Of a stretch of 64,000 nucleotides of DNA, positions 45,804 through 51,942 are shown one piece after another. Each line of letters opens with the position of its first letter. Within the stretch, counting starts at the first letter, position 1. Where the stretch lies: contig PABP01000038.1 of the NCBI GenBank assembly GCA_002699585.1, forward strand, positions 186,001-250,000. The letters are read 5' to 3'. Made by a program: the position numbers and the translations under genes. The notes under the pieces are model-generated. The model did no database searches and was not told the DNA's origin. It saw nothing but the letters and a program-made list of their open reading frames with translations. This DNA is from Anaerolineaceae bacterium. GTDB taxonomy: Bacteria; Chloroflexota; Anaerolineae; Aggregatilineales; Phototrophicaceae.

Positions 45804-46634
45804 ATGCCTTGTTTCATCCGATTGCTGACGCCCTCTGGCCTGGAGCCTGTTGATTACACAGCGGACTCTTTGGCAGATGCGGCCCAATACGAACCTGATA
45901 ATGGCATTTATACCGTCACCAATACCTACCAGGTGACGAAAGTGCTGAAGCTGGATGCCCATCTGGACCGCATGGAGGACTCCGCGCGGCGAGCGGGTTT
46001 TCATCTGGAACTGGACCGACAACGGCTGAGAACCACTCTACGCGAGATGATTCTGGAAGCGGGTTATGGCGATGTACGCTTCCGGGTGACGGTCAGCAAA
46101 GATCGACCAGAAGTGTTTATTATCTCATTGGAACCCTTCAGCCCACCCAGCCAACAGCTCATCGAAAAAGGTGTAAGCTGTATCACCGCAGCCAATAGCG
46201 CCCGGCAATCCGCTGAGACCAAGTCCACTGCATGGATGCACGCGCGTAAAGCGCTGTCTGATGCCATGCCCGAAGGCATTTACGATACGTTCCTGCTAGA
46301 TGCCGATGGCTATCTGATGGAAGGCCTGGGAGCGAATTTTTACGCCATACTCGATGGCACATTGCGAACAGCAGGTCAGGGCGTCCTAAAGGGCATCGCC
46401 CAGCAGATTGTGCTGGAAGTCGCGCCCGATATTTTGCCTGTGCAGATGGATGCGGCCCATGTGAGCCAGATTGACCAGCTTGAAGAAGCCTTCCTGACCA
46501 GCAGCAGTCGAGGAATTATCCCAGTGGTTGAAATCGACCATATTCAGATTGGGAATGGCGTACCGGGGACGCTGACAAAGAAACTCATTGCGGCCTATCA
46601 TGCCTGGGTAGATGCGCACCTGCAAGCGTTATAA
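45804..46634 (+). CDS. Class IV aminotransferase (PLP-dependent)
   Basis: Fold type IV PLP enzyme of 276 residues, similar to branched-chain aminotransferase, D-amino acid aminotransferase and 4-amino-4-deoxychorismate lyase. The Schiff-base lysine is in WMHARKAL; the PLP glutamate and loop are in LMEGLGANFYAI, and SSSRGIIPV matches the phosphate-binding segment. HLDRMEDSARRAG is typical of the group near the N-terminus. The exact reaction cannot be fixed without pab or ilv genes nearby. It is 12 bases after the TIM-barrel-like gene. Confidence 0.88.
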   Translation: MPCFIRLLTPSGLEPVDYTADSLADAAQYEPDNGIYTVTNTYQVTKVLKLDAHLDRMEDSARRAGFHLELDRQRLRTTLREMILEAGYGDVRFRVTVSKDRPEVFIISLEPFSPPSQQLIEKGVSCITAANSARQSAETKSTAWMHARKALSDAMPEGIYDTFLLDADGYLMEGLGANFYAILDGTLRTAGQGVLKGIAQQIVLEVAPDILPVQMDAAHVSQIDQLEEAFLTSSSRGIIPVVEIDHIQIGNGVPGTLTKKLIAAYHAWVDAHLQAL

Positions 46635-46668
46635 TCATAGGCGACCCTAGTCTGTACGAGGTATCACG

Positions 46669-47091
46669 ATGCAGCATTTAGACAACCTGTGGAAGATCGT
46701 CAATGTTGCGTCCAGCGTGCGTGATATTGCTGTTGAACGCAAAACTTATCGCTATACGGTTGCCCCACCGGTTACGCTCTATCTCCATTTGCAGGCGGCC
46801 CACATTACGTTTGAGCAGTGGATACAGCCCACAATAGAAATCTCGGCTGAGTTCCAGGCTAGCTTTGGCTGGCGGCTCAAAGCTGAGCAAGACGATTACG
46901 GCGTCTACTTTGTCGCCAAGCCGATGGCCGTTGTCGGCAGTTTGGCCCAGGCCAAAATCCGGGCGATGCTCCCGGCAAAAACCAACCTGGTACTGCGCCT
47001 GGAAAAATGCACGCTGACACTGGCTAATCTGACTGGCACAGTCGAGTTGCCGGATCAAGAGGGCCTCGTCCATTTGCTGTCATCCGGTTAA
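46669..47091 (+). CDS. Hypothetical beta-rich protein (140 residues)
   Basis: Not recognised. It is soluble, without signal peptide, and dominated by alternating hydrophobic strands (YRYTVAPPVTLYLHL, IEISAEFQAS, VYFVAKPMAVVG, LVLRLEKCTLTLANL), a pattern similar to adhesin or auto-transporter-like beta-helix domains found in DUF4097-type proteins. ATG 46669 follows GAGGTATCACG. It lies 34 bases after the aminotransferase stop, so it is probably the last gene of that unit. Confidence 0.7.
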   Translation: MQHLDNLWKIVNVASSVRDIAVERKTYRYTVAPPVTLYLHLQAAHITFEQWIQPTIEISAEFQASFGWRLKAEQDDYGVYFVAKPMAVVGSLAQAKIRAMLPAKTNLVLRLEKCTLTLANLTGTVELPDQEGLVHLLSSG

Positions 47092-47130
47092 GTATATGAC
47101 GCAGCACGTATAAGTCACCTTCGATTAGAG

Positions 47131-47136
47131 TATAAT
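47131..47136 (+). promoter_or_regulatory. -10 box of a candidate RNA promoter
   Basis: A perfect TATAAT; the -35 region 17 bases upstream is weak. Expected transcription start is about 47143, where the candidate RNA's 5' pairing arm begins. Confidence 0.5.
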
Positions 47137-47140
47137 TAAA

Positions 47141-47331
47141 CACTTATCAGATCACATAAGCTAAGCGTTGCATATTGGGTGCAGTCGTGTTATGTTTTGC
47201 GCATGGAACGCTATCTGACTGCCACCACCTGTTGTATGATGCCGATTCGAAAAACCGGGTTGGTTTGCTTTTGATAGTGGTTTCTTACGTAACGTGTCAA
47301 TGACAAAGCCAACCTCGTGTTGGCTTTTTTT
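47141..47331 (+). ncRNA. Candidate small structured RNA or transcribed leader
   Basis: The 303-base gap before the rhodanese gene has no convincing protein frame. It has a perfect -10 box (47131-47136), a 5' arm CACTTATCA (47141-47149) that pairs with TGATAGTG (47272-47279) with one bulge, internal helices (GGTGCAGTC with GACTGC-C-ACC; GCGTT with AACGC), and then a strong terminator at 47305-47331. The predicted transcript is about 190 bases. It could be a trans-acting RNA or a terminated leader of the sulfurtransferase. SAM-I, TPP, T-box and tmRNA signatures were not found. Confidence 0.45.
47305..47331 (+). terminator. Intrinsic terminator inside the pre-rhodanese spacer
   Basis: AAGCCAAC (47306-47313) pairs with GTTGGCTT (47319-47326), followed by a run of T. 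It lies 64 bases before the next start codon and 214 after the previous stop, so it closes a separate transcript or a leader. Confidence 0.88.
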
Positions 47332-47394
47332 GTCCAGACACACCATCATCATTCCAGTAATCTATTAGCTACAAAAATTTGAGGAGACACGTTT

Positions 47395-48258
47395 ATGAGT
47401 GATATATCCGAGCGCGGTTATGCCAACAGTGATGTCCTGGTTACTACCGAGTGGGTGGCCAATAACCTGAACAATCCTGATGTCCGTATCATTGAATCCA
47501 ACGAAGACCCGCTTCTCTATCCATCTGGGCATGTGCCGGGTGCCGTTGAAGTCGATTGGACGAGCGACCTGAACGACCCTATCGTCCGTGATTACATCGG
47601 CAAAGATGCGTTTGAATCCCTGGCCAGCCGCATCGGCATCACGCCGGATACGACCGTCATATTCTACGGCGACAAGAGCAACTGGTGGGCGACTTATGCG
47701 CTGTGGGTTTTCCGGCTGTTTGGCCACACCAATGCCAAAATCATGGATGGTGGCCGCAAGAAATGGGTCGATGAAGGCCGTGACCTGAATCGTGAAGTCC
47801 CGTCTTACGAGGCAACCGACTACAAAGTGCCGCACGAGCGCGATGACAAAACCGAACGTGCCCTGCGCGAAGAAGTCCTCAAGCATGTCCAGGCATCGGG
47901 CCAGTTGGTAGATGTCCGCAGCCCAGCCGAGTACACCGGCGAAAAGCTGCACATGGAAGGTTATCCGCAGGAAGGCGCGCTGCGTGGTGGCCATATCCCT
48001 GGCGCACGCAACATCCCCTGGAGCCGTGCCGCCAACGAAGACGGCACCTTCAAGGGCGCTGACGAACTGCGCGAAATCTACGAAAAAGAACAGGGCCTGA
48101 ACGCAGATAACCCGGTCATCACTTACTGCCGCATTGGCGAACGTAGCAGCCATAGCTGGTTCGTGCTGTCATTCCTGCTGGGCTACGACGATGTCCGCAA
48201 TTACGATGGCTCCTGGACCGAATGGGGCAACAGCGTCGGCGTCCCGATTGAAAAATAG
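47395..48258 (+). CDS. Two-domain rhodanese (thiosulfate or 3-mercaptopyruvate sulfurtransferase)
   Basis: Protein of 287 residues made of two rhodanese domains. The N-terminal one is inactive; the C-terminal active loop is CRIGERS with nucleophile Cys245, which carries a persulfide. The domain entry motifs [22 protein letters not shown] and [12 protein letters not shown] are clear. The CRIGERS loop is closer to thiosulfate than to mercaptopyruvate sulfurtransferases. ATG 47395 follows GAGGAGACACGTTT. SufE, another sulfur carrier, is encoded 126 bases downstream. Confidence 0.94.
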
Positions 48259-48384: not shown

Positions 48385-48831
48385 ATGAGCGACATTCCAC
48401 CTAAATTGCAAGAATCCATTGAAGATTTTAGTTTCATCACCACGCGCACGGAGCGCCAGGAATATCTGATTCAGTTGGCAGCCAGCTTTGACGAGGTCAA
48501 AGTACCGGAGCGCATCGCAACCCAACCCTATGATGAAAGCCATCGCGTCCCCGCCTGTGAATCGGATGCTTTCGTCTGGGCGGAAGAACAAGAAGATGGC
48601 ACGCTCAAATATTGGTTCGATGTGCTGAACCCGCAGGGCCTCAGCGCGATGGCAATGGCCGTCATCCTGGACCAATCGTTATCGGGTGCCCAGCTTGACC
48701 AGATCACCAATGTGCAATCCGATATTGTGCTGGATTTCTTCGGCAAAGGGATTTCGATGGGCAAAGGTCAGGGCCTGATGGGCATCGTCAACATGGTCGT
48801 TGCAGAAGCCAAGCGCCGAACAAAAGCCTGA
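48385..48831 (+). CDS. sufE: SufE-family sulfur acceptor for Fe-S cluster assembly
   Basis: Soluble protein of 148 residues. SufE accepts persulfide sulfur from the cysteine desulfurase SufS and passes it to the scaffold. The active cysteine Cys58 lies in HRVPACESDAF, the family position. ATG 48385 follows GAGGCAACTT; an upstream TTG in frame is less likely. No sufBCDS genes are in the window. The ATP-grasp gene starts 13 bases after the stop, placing sufE at the head of a five-gene run. Confidence 0.9.
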   Translation: MSDIPPKLQESIEDFSFITTRTERQEYLIQLAASFDEVKVPERIATQPYDESHRVPACESDAFVWAEEQEDGTLKYWFDVLNPQGLSAMAMAVILDQSLSGAQLDQITNVQSDIVLDFFGKGISMGKGQGLMGIVNMVVAEAKRRTKA

Positions 48832-48844
48832 GAAAGCGACCTGC

Positions 48845-49735
48845 ATGCAGATCGCCATTGCGACCACAGCCATCGATAACGTCCCATTTGTTGGCACAGA
48901 ACACGGCCTCATACCATCGCTAAAGCGGCATGGTATCGAGGCTGAATTTGTTATCTGGGACGATGAATGTATCGATTGGTCGCGCTACGATGCCGTACTT
49001 GTGCGTTCTATCTGGAATTATCACGAAAAGCCGCAGATATTTCTCGATTGGCTGTCTAGCCTGGAAAGCCAATCCATCCCCGTCGCCAACAAACCGGACA
49101 TCCTACGCTGGAATATGGACAAGCGCTATTTACGCGACCTGGCCGTGCACAACATTCCAACCCTGCCGACAGTCTGGGTTGAAGATAGTTGTAAAACATC
49201 GCTTCTGACTATTCTGGAAACAAATACCTGGCAAGAGGCGGTCATTAAGCCGACTGTCAGCAACAGCGCAATCAATACCTGGCGCACAGACATCGCCTCA
49301 GCCAAATCTGACCAAGCGCGTTTTGAAGCACTCATGCAGCGCAAGCGGGTTATGGTCCAGCAGTTCGCCCCGCAAATTGCGACAGGTGAATATTCGTTTC
49401 TATTCTTTGGCGGCACATTCAGCCATCTGGTACTGAAGAAACCCGCTGAGAATGCGTATTTTGTGCAGGCAGAATATGGCGGCACAACCACCCTGATTGA
49501 TGCCATTGAAGCTCACTATGTCGAACAAGCTGAGGATATTCTATCGGCAGCAACACAGATCATTGGGCACACACCCACTTATGCCCGTGTGGATGTCATC
49601 GACGACGGTGGCACATTGGTCCTCATGGAATTGGAGCTGATTGAGCCGGAACTATTTTTACTCACGGATGACATCACCCAACGCTGTGCCGATGCCGTCG
49701 CCAGCGATCTATACGCCAACGACCTGCACCTATGA
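48845..49735 (+). CDS. ATP-grasp ligase, DcsG-like
   Basis: Protein of 296 residues with the ATP-grasp fold. The preATP domain has the pattern YDAVLVRSIWNYHEKPQIFLDW and the DcsG-like segment ILRWNMDKRYLRDLA. The ATP-binding lysines are in EAVIKPTVSN, with GEYSFLFFGG and YARVDVIDD, LMELELIEPELF as metal-binding parts. DcsG, the O-ureido-serine cyclo-ligase of D-cycloserine synthesis, is the best described relative, but the wider family is uncharacterised. Its stop overlaps the methyltransferase start by four bases (ATGA). Confidence 0.88.
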   Translation: MQIAIATTAIDNVPFVGTEHGLIPSLKRHGIEAEFVIWDDECIDWSRYDAVLVRSIWNYHEKPQIFLDWLSSLESQSIPVANKPDILRWNMDKRYLRDLAVHNIPTLPTVWVEDSCKTSLLTILETNTWQEAVIKPTVSNSAINTWRTDIASAKSDQARFEALMQRKRVMVQQFAPQIATGEYSFLFFGGTFSHLVLKKPAENAYFVQAEYGGTTTLIDAIEAHYVEQAEDILSAATQIIGHTPTYARVDVIDDGGTLVLMELELIEPELFLLTDDITQRCADAVASDLYANDLHL

Positions 49736-51942
49736 ACGAGCCGCTCTCTGCGCGTCGAGTTAAGCAGCTCTTTGGGCGCAAATCCCAGGTAACCAAGCAC
49801 ACCCTCCCCACAATTTATGACGCCCTGGCAGAAGATCCAGCACTCAAATTAGCCAAACCCCCAAAATCATCGGTCGATTGGAAACGTTACGGCCAACAAT
49901 ATGACATTGAAAACGGCTCCCCAGGAATACTATTGGGGGCGTTGCATGTTTACTATGCTGGTATCGCGCTCTGGCTAGCCGCGGAACGCATCGCACAGCA
50001 AAATGACCAGCCCTATTGGCAAGAAGTCGTGTCAGGGCGTTTTTTCCAGAAAAATGGCATTCAAAATTTGGTAGCGCCTGACTGGATGCAAGAAGCCCTT
50101 ATGGCTATCGACACGGCTCATTTTCCGCAGTTTGATGTACCAGGTATGCCGGGGGATGTACTCAAGCACCTCTACCAGGATTTGATCCCCAAGAAGATAC
50201 GCCATGCCGTTGGTGCGTACTATACGCCGGATTGGTTAGCGGATCATCTGTTGGCGCAAGTCGACTATGATGGCCAGCAAACCCTGCTCGACCCGGCCTG
50301 CGGCAGCGGCACGTTCCTGGTGGCGGCTGTGCAGATGGCCACCACGCGAAGCATAAAATCCGATGACATCCTAAGCAGGTTGTATGGCATCGATAATGAC
50401 CCACTTGCGATATTAGCCGCAAAGGTCAATCTGCTGCTGAACTTGCCGCCCATCAACAGCCCAATCACGTTGCCCATTTACGAGGCAGATGCCCTCTTCA
50501 ATGACCTGGGCCTTACTCAGGTTGACTTGGTTGTCGGCAATCCACCCTGGATCAACTGGCAGCATCTATCGGCAGCTTATCGGACCCAAACGCGCGATCT
50601 GTGGGACGAATATGGGCTGTTTGCCCATCAGGGCATGGACCAAATTTTGGGCAAAGGCAAAAAAGATTTCGCTACGCTGTTCACCTGTGTGGTTGCGGAT
50701 CGCTATCTGAAAGATGGCGGCCAACTGGCCTTTTTGCTCAGTCGCAGCACGCTGAAGTCAGGCGGCGCGAGTGCCGGGTTCCGGCATTATTTGATAGAGG
50801 GGCCGCTCAAGGTCAACCATGTGGATGACGTCAGCCAGATTACCAGCTACGGCGGCACTCGGCTGGACACAATTGCCCTCTTCGCCACGAAAACAAGCGA
50901 GCAAAAAGTGCGTCCCACGATTAGCTATAGTCTGTGGCGACCACAACGACAGCGTTTACGTCTGGAAGATGAACCCCTCAAGCGAGTCCTGACCTTGACG
51001 ACACGCCATATTCTGCAAGCCGAACCCATCGCCGCAGACGATCCACGCAGTCCATGGTTGAGCGCCCCCCAGGCTGGCATAGCGGCGATTCGTAAGCTCA
51101 CGGGCACATCGGCCTATGAAGCCCATGCCGGCGTTTATACAGGTGGGGCGAATGCAGCATATTGGCTGGACATCCTCGAAGATCGCGGGCAAACGCTGCT
51201 CGTGAAGAATATTCGGGAACGCAGCAAACGCGCCATCAAAATGGTCACCGCAGAAATTGAGCGTGACCTGGTGTATCCGCTGCTGCGGGGTCGAGATGTG
51301 CAGCGCTGGTACGCCCAGCCCTCAGCGCATATTTTGATGGTCCAGGACCCGCAACGGCGGCGCGGCTACGACGAGACATGGCTGCAACAGGTCTATCCGC
51401 GGGTATATGACTACCTACTGACTTTCAAGCCGACATTACTCAAGCGTGGGGCTTATAAACGCTATTTTCGGGATGATGCGCCGTTTTACACCATGTTCGA
51501 TGTCGCAGCGTATTCTTTTGCACCCTACAAGGTGGTTTGGCAAGGCATCGGGGCGCGGTCGATGCAAGCGGCTGTGTGCAGCCCAAGCCAGGGTAAACCC
51601 GTCATGACCAACCAGGCCATGCATCCTTTTGTCGGGCTGGAAGATGAGGACGAGGCCCATTACTTAGCGGCCTGCCTCAATAGCTTGCCCTTTGAATATG
51701 CCCTGCTCACACATTCGCAGGCTGGCAGCCAGAGTTTTGCCCAGGCGGGTATTCTCAAACGCTTGCGCATCCCAGCTTATCATCGGGACAATAGCCTTCA
51801 TCGGGAGTTGACTACTTTTTCCCAGGATGCCCATAATGGGGATATTGGCGATGACTTAGCCGAAATCAGTGCGGCGCTATGGGGCATCACAGCAGCCGAG
51901 TTAGAAGCCATGCGCCAGAATATCAGCATATGGCAAAAATAG
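49732..51942 (+). CDS. N6-adenine-type DNA methyltransferase (Eco57I-like, COG1002 group)
   Basis: Protein of 736 residues. SAM motif I is DPACGSGTFLVA at about 187-198, and the catalytic NPPW motif is at 270-273, typical of enzymes methylating adenine N6. A YYTPDWLADHLL lead-in and a C-terminal TaqI-like target-recognition region (about 440-720) complete it. No nuclease motif (PD-DxK) is obvious in the first 120 residues, and no restriction gene is adjacent, so it may be an orphan modification enzyme. Its start overlaps the ATP-grasp gene, which is an unusual partner. Confidence 0.9.
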   Translation: MNEPLSARRVKQLFGRKSQVTKHTLPTIYDALAEDPALKLAKPPKSSVDWKRYGQQYDIENGSPGILLGALHVYYAGIALWLAAERIAQQNDQPYWQEVVSGRFFQKNGIQNLVAPDWMQEALMAIDTAHFPQFDVPGMPGDVLKHLYQDLIPKKIRHAVGAYYTPDWLADHLLAQVDYDGQQTLLDPACGSGTFLVAAVQMATTRSIKSDDILSRLYGIDNDPLAILAAKVNLLLNLPPINSPITLPIYEADALFNDLGLTQVDLVVGNPPWINWQHLSAAYRTQTRDLWDEYGLFAHQGMDQILGKGKKDFATLFTCVVADRYLKDGGQLAFLLSRSTLKSGGASAGFRHYLIEGPLKVNHVDDVSQITSYGGTRLDTIALFATKTSEQKVRPTISYSLWRPQRQRLRLEDEPLKRVLTLTTRHILQAEPIAADDPRSPWLSAPQAGIAAIRKLTGTSAYEAHAGVYTGGANAAYWLDILEDRGQTLLVKNIRERSKRAIKMVTAEIERDLVYPLLRGRDVQRWYAQPSAHILMVQDPQRRRGYDETWLQQVYPRVYDYLLTFKPTLLKRGAYKRYFRDDAPFYTMFDVAAYSFAPYKVVWQGIGARSMQAAVCSPSQGKPVMTNQAMHPFVGLEDEDEAHYLAACLNSLPFEYALLTHSQAGSQSFAQAGILKRLRIPAYHRDNSLHRELTTFSQDAHNGDIGDDLAEISAALWGITAAELEAMRQNISIWQK

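Follow-up and report, generated by a model that had tools for sequence, protein, structure and literature searches.

A probable cysteine-responsive transcription attenuator upstream of rhodanese and SufE genes in a Chloroflexota bacterium

Introduction

What is encoded in the gap in front of a sulfurtransferase gene in the 64-kb window, the whole stretch of 64,000 nt analysed here? The gap extends from the stop of a 140-codon ORF (47091) to the ATG of the sulfurtransferase gene (47395). The original prediction, made from the sequence alone, placed there an RNA of about 190 nt, either an independent RNA resembling 6S in size or a new riboswitch or attenuator tied to sulfur metabolism. Our analysis indicates, with a probability of roughly 0.85, that the gap is a cysteine-responsive transcription attenuator, working by ribosome stalling, in front of rhodanese-SufE genes.

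The closest precedent is the set of leaderless polycysteine uORFs of mycobacteria, the subject of Canestrari et al. 2020, which reportedly attenuate in response to cysteine. That work is described or used in passages of PMC9031893 and PMC9094748. A passage of Shell et al. 2015 (PMC4633059) presents a leaderless uORF with a Cys cluster before cysA2 and regards such uORFs as possible first examples of cysteine-directed attenuation, and an excerpt of PMC13236596 labels certain Cys codons of M. tuberculosis leaders as regulatory. Leader peptides with runs of Cys had been predicted before actinobacterial cys operons in 2005, those of Mycobacterium without conserved terminator hairpins in the relevant passages of that paper (PMC1262725). 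Leaderless leader peptides are also described for Streptomyces lividans, and since termination at ilvL is said in the same excerpt to seem Rho-independent (PMC8079986), pairing a leaderless start and an intrinsic terminator already has a precedent. We found no paper on cysteine attenuators in Chloroflexi in the open-access literature searched; the available excerpt of PMC2965389 held no Chloroflexi term, and that of PMC4833913 named Chloroflexi once, without cysteine.

Results

The gap, its terminator and known RNA families

The gap described in the original prediction was confirmed: its plus strand carries no long ORF between 47091 and 47395, and its minus strand only mechanical ORFs of the ORF list. 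The strong terminator expected before the gene was also found, with a stem at 47305-47327 and a T-run to 47331, about 64 nt from the ATG. A perfect TATAAT is present as sequence at 47131-47136, and its proposed role as a promoter found no support, because no partner hexamer was scored in a promoter scan of 46600-47600, where the sole promoter-like site lay on the minus strand (47118-47091). The hexamer aligned to TATAAT in the same-genus relative L015 is AATAAT, and an additional upstream start may lie at TATAAT/AATAAT. A length of 190 nt counted from TATAAT is probably wrong; about 129 nt from the predicted start at 47203 suits the locus better. The long-range pairing proposed for the 5' end, another element of the original prediction, turned out to rest solely on a fold no stabler than shuffles: region 47140-47331 folded at -50.9 kcal/mol vs a shuffle mean of -48.1 (z -0.71; 52 of 200 shuffles as stable).

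We then consider known RNA families. The 6S covariance model RF00013 (membership cut-off 46.4 bits) gave no match in the window and matched the same genome elsewhere (G000:C35:266769-266943, 54.8 bits, above the cut-off). In an Rfam/Infernal scan the gap reached no gathering threshold. These results speak against an independent 6S-like RNA in the gap. No T-box or other Rfam riboswitch scored above threshold in the window or in the six loci scanned. The sole relaxed Rfam match in the gap, mir-1791, reached 16.3 bits vs the 75 required and was rejected as a spurious hit of a miRNA model. A DNA search with the gap against its own genome and 20 relatives, one of the same genus, returned only the gap itself at E<=0.001.

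A leader ORF with adjacent Cys codons

The original prediction missed an ORF with tandem Cys codons (47203-47274), as well as a promoter-like element whose end lies 6 nt upstream of it (Table 1). Transcription probably starts at 47203, which is the ATG of the leader ORF; the transcript would then be leaderless. We scored promoters in the 55 leaders described in the next section, searching -10 to ATG spacings of 4-9 nt with a small bonus for 6-7. A promoter was scored in 50 of the 55, and the distance from -10 to ATG was 6 nt in 35 leaders, 7 in 14 and 8 in one. Under a fixed leaderless criterion (at least 4/6 to TTGACA, a spacer of 16-18, TANNNT, and 5-8 nt before an in-frame ATG), 46 of 55 leaders passed. 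Among 2750 shuffles the number was 22, and of 295 other ATGs taken from these regions one passed. The window, with its weak -35, and L015 are among the nine leaders that failed, because TTGCAT matches only 3/6 positions. L015 keeps TTGCAT-17-TATGGT-6-ATG, the tandem TGT TGT, GGTTGG and a CCAACC...GGTTGG terminator, although the gap DNA search gave no match there.

Table 1. Features of the putative attenuator in the window, and genes behind similar leaders in relatives
Feature	Position or locus	Strand	Basis
-35-like TTGCAT, 3/6 to TTGACA, 17-nt spacer	47168..47173	+	Weak; same hexamer and spacing in L015
-10-like TATGTT, 6 nt upstream of ATG	47191..47196	+	Sequence; transcript predicted to begin at ATG
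Leader ORF, 23 codons, MERYLTATTCCMMPIRKTGLVCF	47203..47274	+	CysCys leader ORF and terminator in 55/95 family loci
Tandem Cys codons TGT TGT, proposed ribosome stall site	47230..47235	+	Sequence; CysCys enrichment
Predicted hairpin 1:2 (47241-47249 with 47256-47264)	47241..47264	+	-10.4 kcal/mol, z -2.64, 2/200 shuffles as stable (47236-47266)
Antiterminator 2:3 (47257-47266 with 47306-47315), predicted if a stalled ribosome covers 47203-47243	47257..47315	+	Folding
Intrinsic terminator 3:4, AAAGCCAAC-CTCGT-GTTGGCTTT and T-run	47305..47331	+	Sequence, terminator scan, folding
Shine-Dalgarno-like GAGGAG of the sulfurtransferase gene	47381..47386	+	Sequence
Two-domain rhodanese / thiosulfate sulfurtransferase, putative controlled gene	47395..48258	+	Pfam PF00581, 2 stretches
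SufE-family gene, probable second operon gene	48385..48831	+	Pfam PF02657; ORF listed from TTG 48370, ATG 48385
Prok-JAB/JAMM	L243, L247, L255, L257		Cys leader and hairpin/T-run; Pfam on one JAMM, the rest by likeness
PALP cysteine synthase-like	L249 MKQFYCCCCCHAEAGA, L250		Pfam on one PALP, the other by likeness
Cys/Met metabolism PLP enzyme	L256 (relative G046)		Cys leader and terminator; Pfam
Family-5 solute-binding protein	L245 (relative G061)		Cys leader MSAKLTQRCCTFCCWDSSY and terminator; Pfam

The presumed controlled gene matched the PDB entries 1uar, 3p3a, 3hzu (sseA) and 3aax. Of the 30 rhodanese loci L014-L043, not all of them complete, 25 contained a SufE match. Elsewhere in the window, a large ORF at 49732-51942 carries an NPPW motif, recognised by eye, of the kind seen in N6-adenine methylases.

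Recurrence of the leader before rhodanese genes

We collected one rhodanese orthologue each from 95 of the 98 family genomes (three had no match at the cut-off) and analysed the last 330 nt before the gene. The leader rule asked for a CysCys ORF (ATG, 8-50 codons) and a terminator within these 330 nt; its thresholds (330 nt, 90 nt, CC) were set after the first loci were seen, and an earlier round gave 24/57. The results showed that 64 of 95 loci carry an intrinsic terminator by rule, vs 5.1% of shuffles. A CysCys ORF together with a terminator occurred in 55 loci, vs 0.16% of 3800 dinucleotide shuffles and 0/95 on the reverse strand. With the upstream part shuffled and the terminator kept, 5.9% passed, equal to 3.8 loci expected. 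CysCys was the top of the 20 homodipeptides (55 vs 3.8 expected), the values for Met, Asp and Arg being 14 vs 2.0, 8 vs 1.4 and 21 vs 9.6. The other 40 loci failed the leader rule, 31 of them having no terminator by rule.

The 55 leaders are not independent, 34 of them belonging to one genus, and the genus counts weigh more than the total. By genus, the rule was passed by 34/34 loci in g25, 2/2 in g1 (the genus of the window), 12/17 in g12, 3/15 in g24, 2/2 in g6, 1/1 in g3 and 1/3 in g21. In 15 other genera of the family no locus passed the CysCys rule, and a looser rule adds one, L160 of g4. Alignment of 34 leaders from a single genus showed Cys codons in register and most other codons variable; across genera, peptide length and non-Cys residues diverge. 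The new riboswitch that had been suggested is not supported, since what recurs is a short frame with adjacent Cys codons, without conserved structure; the alternative guess of an attenuator tied to sulfur metabolism is supported. When both strands of the 64-kb window were searched by the same rule, the leader before the rhodanese gene was the only CysCys ORF with a terminator.

Outside the family, 35 genomes of other families in the order had a rhodanese at the cut-off. Among the 20 better-matching loci examined, one (L240) passed the CysCys rule and three passed with a looser Cys rule. Four passed among the best 80 loci listed from named genomes: the peptides of L044, L045 and L047 (Anaerolineae / Chloroflexi bacterium) are identical to family leaders, which puts the family in Chloroflexota, and the leader of L093 (Gemmatimonadaceae) is doubtful.

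Variants of the arrangement were also seen. L215, L221 and L255 have alternating Cys codons (CxCxC), which escape the CysCys rule. About 110-140 nt separate the terminator from the gene in L027, L028 and L132 of g12, and L028 has, by eye, an apparent second promoter after the terminator that would bypass the attenuator.

Predicted folding of the leader

Folding of the window leader gave modest stabilities compared with shuffles, with z -1.14 for the whole leader (47203-47333) and -18.5 kcal/mol for the antiterminator region 47244-47317 (z -1.68; 10/200 shuffles as stable). The predicted antiterminator overlaps the 5' arm of the terminator. We modelled a stalled state, with the RNA covered to 47243 (ribosome on the first Cys codon), and a stop state, with the RNA covered past the stop. 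Upstream pairing of the terminator 5' arm was predicted at 0.88 in the stalled state vs 0.15 with the ribosome at the stop, and the probability of the terminator at 0.02 vs 0.94; 6 of 100 shuffled spacers equalled this switching.

The same calculation in 24 leaders gave upstream pairing of the 5' arm of 0.60 stalled, 0.25 at the stop and 0.49 shuffled, and none of 100 shuffle sets reached 0.60. In 16 of these 24 leaders, L015 among them, the terminator of the full-length RNA remained at 0.94-1.00 at equilibrium even with the ribosome stalled, and these would therefore need kinetic folding. Across all 55 leaders, mean pairing was 0.60 stalled, 0.33 at the stop and 0.50 shuffled (0/60 sets reach 0.60), and 0.56 when the spacer was swapped from another genus. 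The expected direction was found in 43 of 55 leaders, with 41 above their own shuffle mean and 35 above the swap mean. Genus g12 showed no excess (0.54 vs 0.53 shuffled and 0.65 swapped). The difference between the stalled and stop states stems partly from the longer free spacer, and family-wide support for the predicted antiterminator is moderate.

An alignment of the 34 g25 leaders placed the sequence that follows the stop codon (consensus TAG GCGGGT) opposite ACCCGC of the terminator arm. The RNAalifold consensus of these leaders recovered the terminator and gave only 3 pairs before the 3' arm; for this reason the antiterminator was tested as a structure named by us. Its cells were 80.9% paired, a value reached by 8/500 shuffles, and 25-47% were paired when it was slid. 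The test of covariation proposed alongside the original prediction found little of it: the antiterminator has 5 pairs with double changes, which 55/500 shuffles reach, and the g25 terminator (98.7% paired) has no double changes.

Leaders before other sulfur genes

Model R1, built on 34 leaders of one genus, was run on the 98 family genomes. It recovered the 34 leaders used in training, matched the L015 leader over its full length (E 4.3e-4) and reported many other places; the window's own leader was absent from the matches of this one-genus model at E<=1. We examined 15 places, picked for full-length or strong matches and for location in the window's own genome. In eight of them (Table 1), a gene linked to sulfur or uptake is preceded by both a Cys-rich leader and a T-run hairpin; the other seven were unconvincing. 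The leaders of L249 and L250 have five and four consecutive Cys codons, respectively, before cysteine synthase-like genes; neither has a terminator by rule, and a long hairpin with a T-run was seen by eye in both. The L245 leader hints at cysteine-controlled uptake of peptides or glutathione. The own-genome places L248, L252, L253 and L254 resemble ordinary terminators and were rejected; L252 passes the CysCys and terminator rule, no sulfur gene was seen behind it, and it was counted as chance.

A second leader in the window's own genome, in L258 1085-2083 (G000:C2, minus strand), reads MSRERICRPLHQQQTTCCCLMTCTLHVGCFAL and includes CCC; between it and a JAMM gene lies a terminator, and the JAMM gene is followed by a ThiS-family sulfur carrier gene. 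JAMM and ThiS genes are the pair of the Mec/CysO cysteine route. A JAMM search in 21 genomes returned 18 loci, of which 12, counted without a shuffle control and under a looser Cys-rich rule (CC, or CxC with a third Cys), have a Cys-rich leader and a terminator; these include L258 and a same-genus relative. The six JAMM loci lacking a leader also lack a terminator; they are the more divergent copies, with identities of 48% or less. In G006 and G003, a Cys/Met PLP enzyme gene lies close to the JAMM gene. For cysteine synthase-like genes, 24 of 30 loci were examined, and three have a Cys-rich leader with a terminator; that of the window's own genome has none.

Discussion

At the level of sequence, the gap holds a leader ORF with adjacent Cys codons (TGT TGT, a feature shared by 55/95 loci), a promoter-like spacing before it and a terminator between ORF and gene, and this arrangement recurs across genera and before other sulfur genes. 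Our confidence in the attenuator plan is high; for the exact form of the antiterminator and the position of the start site it is moderate. The start of transcription, translation, stalling, antitermination and the cysteine response are proposed to operate as follows. RNA polymerase would start at about 47203, placing the AUG at the 5' end, and the ribosome would load without a Shine-Dalgarno site once the 5' end emerges; such leaderless loading could couple ribosome and polymerase tightly, replacing the usual pause. With ample Cys-tRNA, the ribosome would pass UGU UGU, reach the stop codon at 47272-47274 and cover strand 2 (47257-47266), and the terminator 47305-47331 would then form and release an RNA of about 129 nt. 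With scarce Cys-tRNA, the ribosome would stall at 47230-47235 and occupy the 5' half of hairpin 1:2, leaving strand 2 free to pair with 47306-47315. The terminator would then be blocked, and rhodanese-SufE would be transcribed, raising the sulfur supply. While the ribosome is off the Cys codons, hairpin 1:2 would sequester the antiterminator strand.

Other explanations were weighed against this reading. The size, the terminator and the intergenic position would also suit a free-standing, structured small RNA of the 6S kind, or a riboswitch that binds a metabolite, at 47140-47331. We regard this as extremely unlikely, given that 6S lies elsewhere in the genome, that the gap has no Rfam match and folds no better than shuffles, and that gap DNA is unmatched in 20 relatives, one of the same genus (E<=0.001), while the Cys frame persists. 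Cys clusters can bind metal, and the leader ORF might on this ground be a functional Cys-rich small protein, for example for metal or redox binding, followed by an ordinary terminator. Length and non-Cys residues that are not conserved across genera make such a protein very improbable, and NCBIfam, which holds curated leader-peptide profiles, gave no match for three leader peptides, the window's and two from relatives (0 families at E<=10, with very short queries).

A Cys leader peptide could also act on translation or on Rho, as proposed for mycobacteria, with the hairpin as a by-stander terminator. Consistent with this, the Cys leader ORFs of mycobacteria lie upstream of cys genes and, in the 2005 analysis (PMC1262725), are not accompanied by conserved terminator hairpins; one such uORF precedes cysA2 in an excerpt of PMC4633059. 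In the window, however, 120 nt lie between the uORF stop and the gene start, excluding stop-start coupling; terminators present in 64/95 loci vs 5.1% of shuffles, 55 with a Cys ORF ahead, and the occurrence of the Cys ORF and terminator pair before other genes also speak against it, and we consider it unlikely.

The preferred reading, a cysteine-responsive transcription attenuator, resembles the mycobacterial polycysteine uORFs in having Cys codons clustered in a short ORF upstream of sulfur genes, which in mycobacteria include the rhodanese gene cysA2, and in its leaderless start, here predicted. It differs from them in belonging to another phylum and in having an intrinsic terminator and a predicted antiterminator after the ORF. 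Compared with the details of classical trp-type attenuators, the codon here is Cys, the start is predicted to be leaderless, and the g25 antiterminator strand lies just after the stop codon. Leader codons, alternative hairpins and an intrinsic terminator are shared with trp-type attenuators as passages of PMC1262725 present them, and a short ORF with a run of Cys codons before sulfur genes is shared with the actinobacterial cys leader peptides of the same source. The S. lividans leader peptides are similar in being leaderless, as is predicted here; they belong to another phylum and to other amino acids, and the excerpt of PMC8079986 names no Cys-run leader.

On balance we lean slightly towards a cysteine-starvation regulon of Chloroflexota acting through leaderless poly-Cys ORFs and intrinsic terminators. 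Its members would be rhodanese-SufE and a JAMM/ThiS (Mec/CysO-like) operon, joined in relatives by cysteine synthase and Cys/Met PLP enzymes, and it would be separate or far diverged from the mycobacterial version. If the attenuator reading is true, the locus would be an example from outside Actinobacteria of a cysteine attenuator that has both an intrinsic terminator and an antiterminator, and it would stand before a rhodanese gene of the type that follows such a leader in mycobacteria. It would also be a compact, testable system in which attenuation of transcription starts from leaderless translation. It would explain why the gap DNA is unconserved while its plan persists, and would point to a cysteine-controlled gene set in a little-studied phylum.
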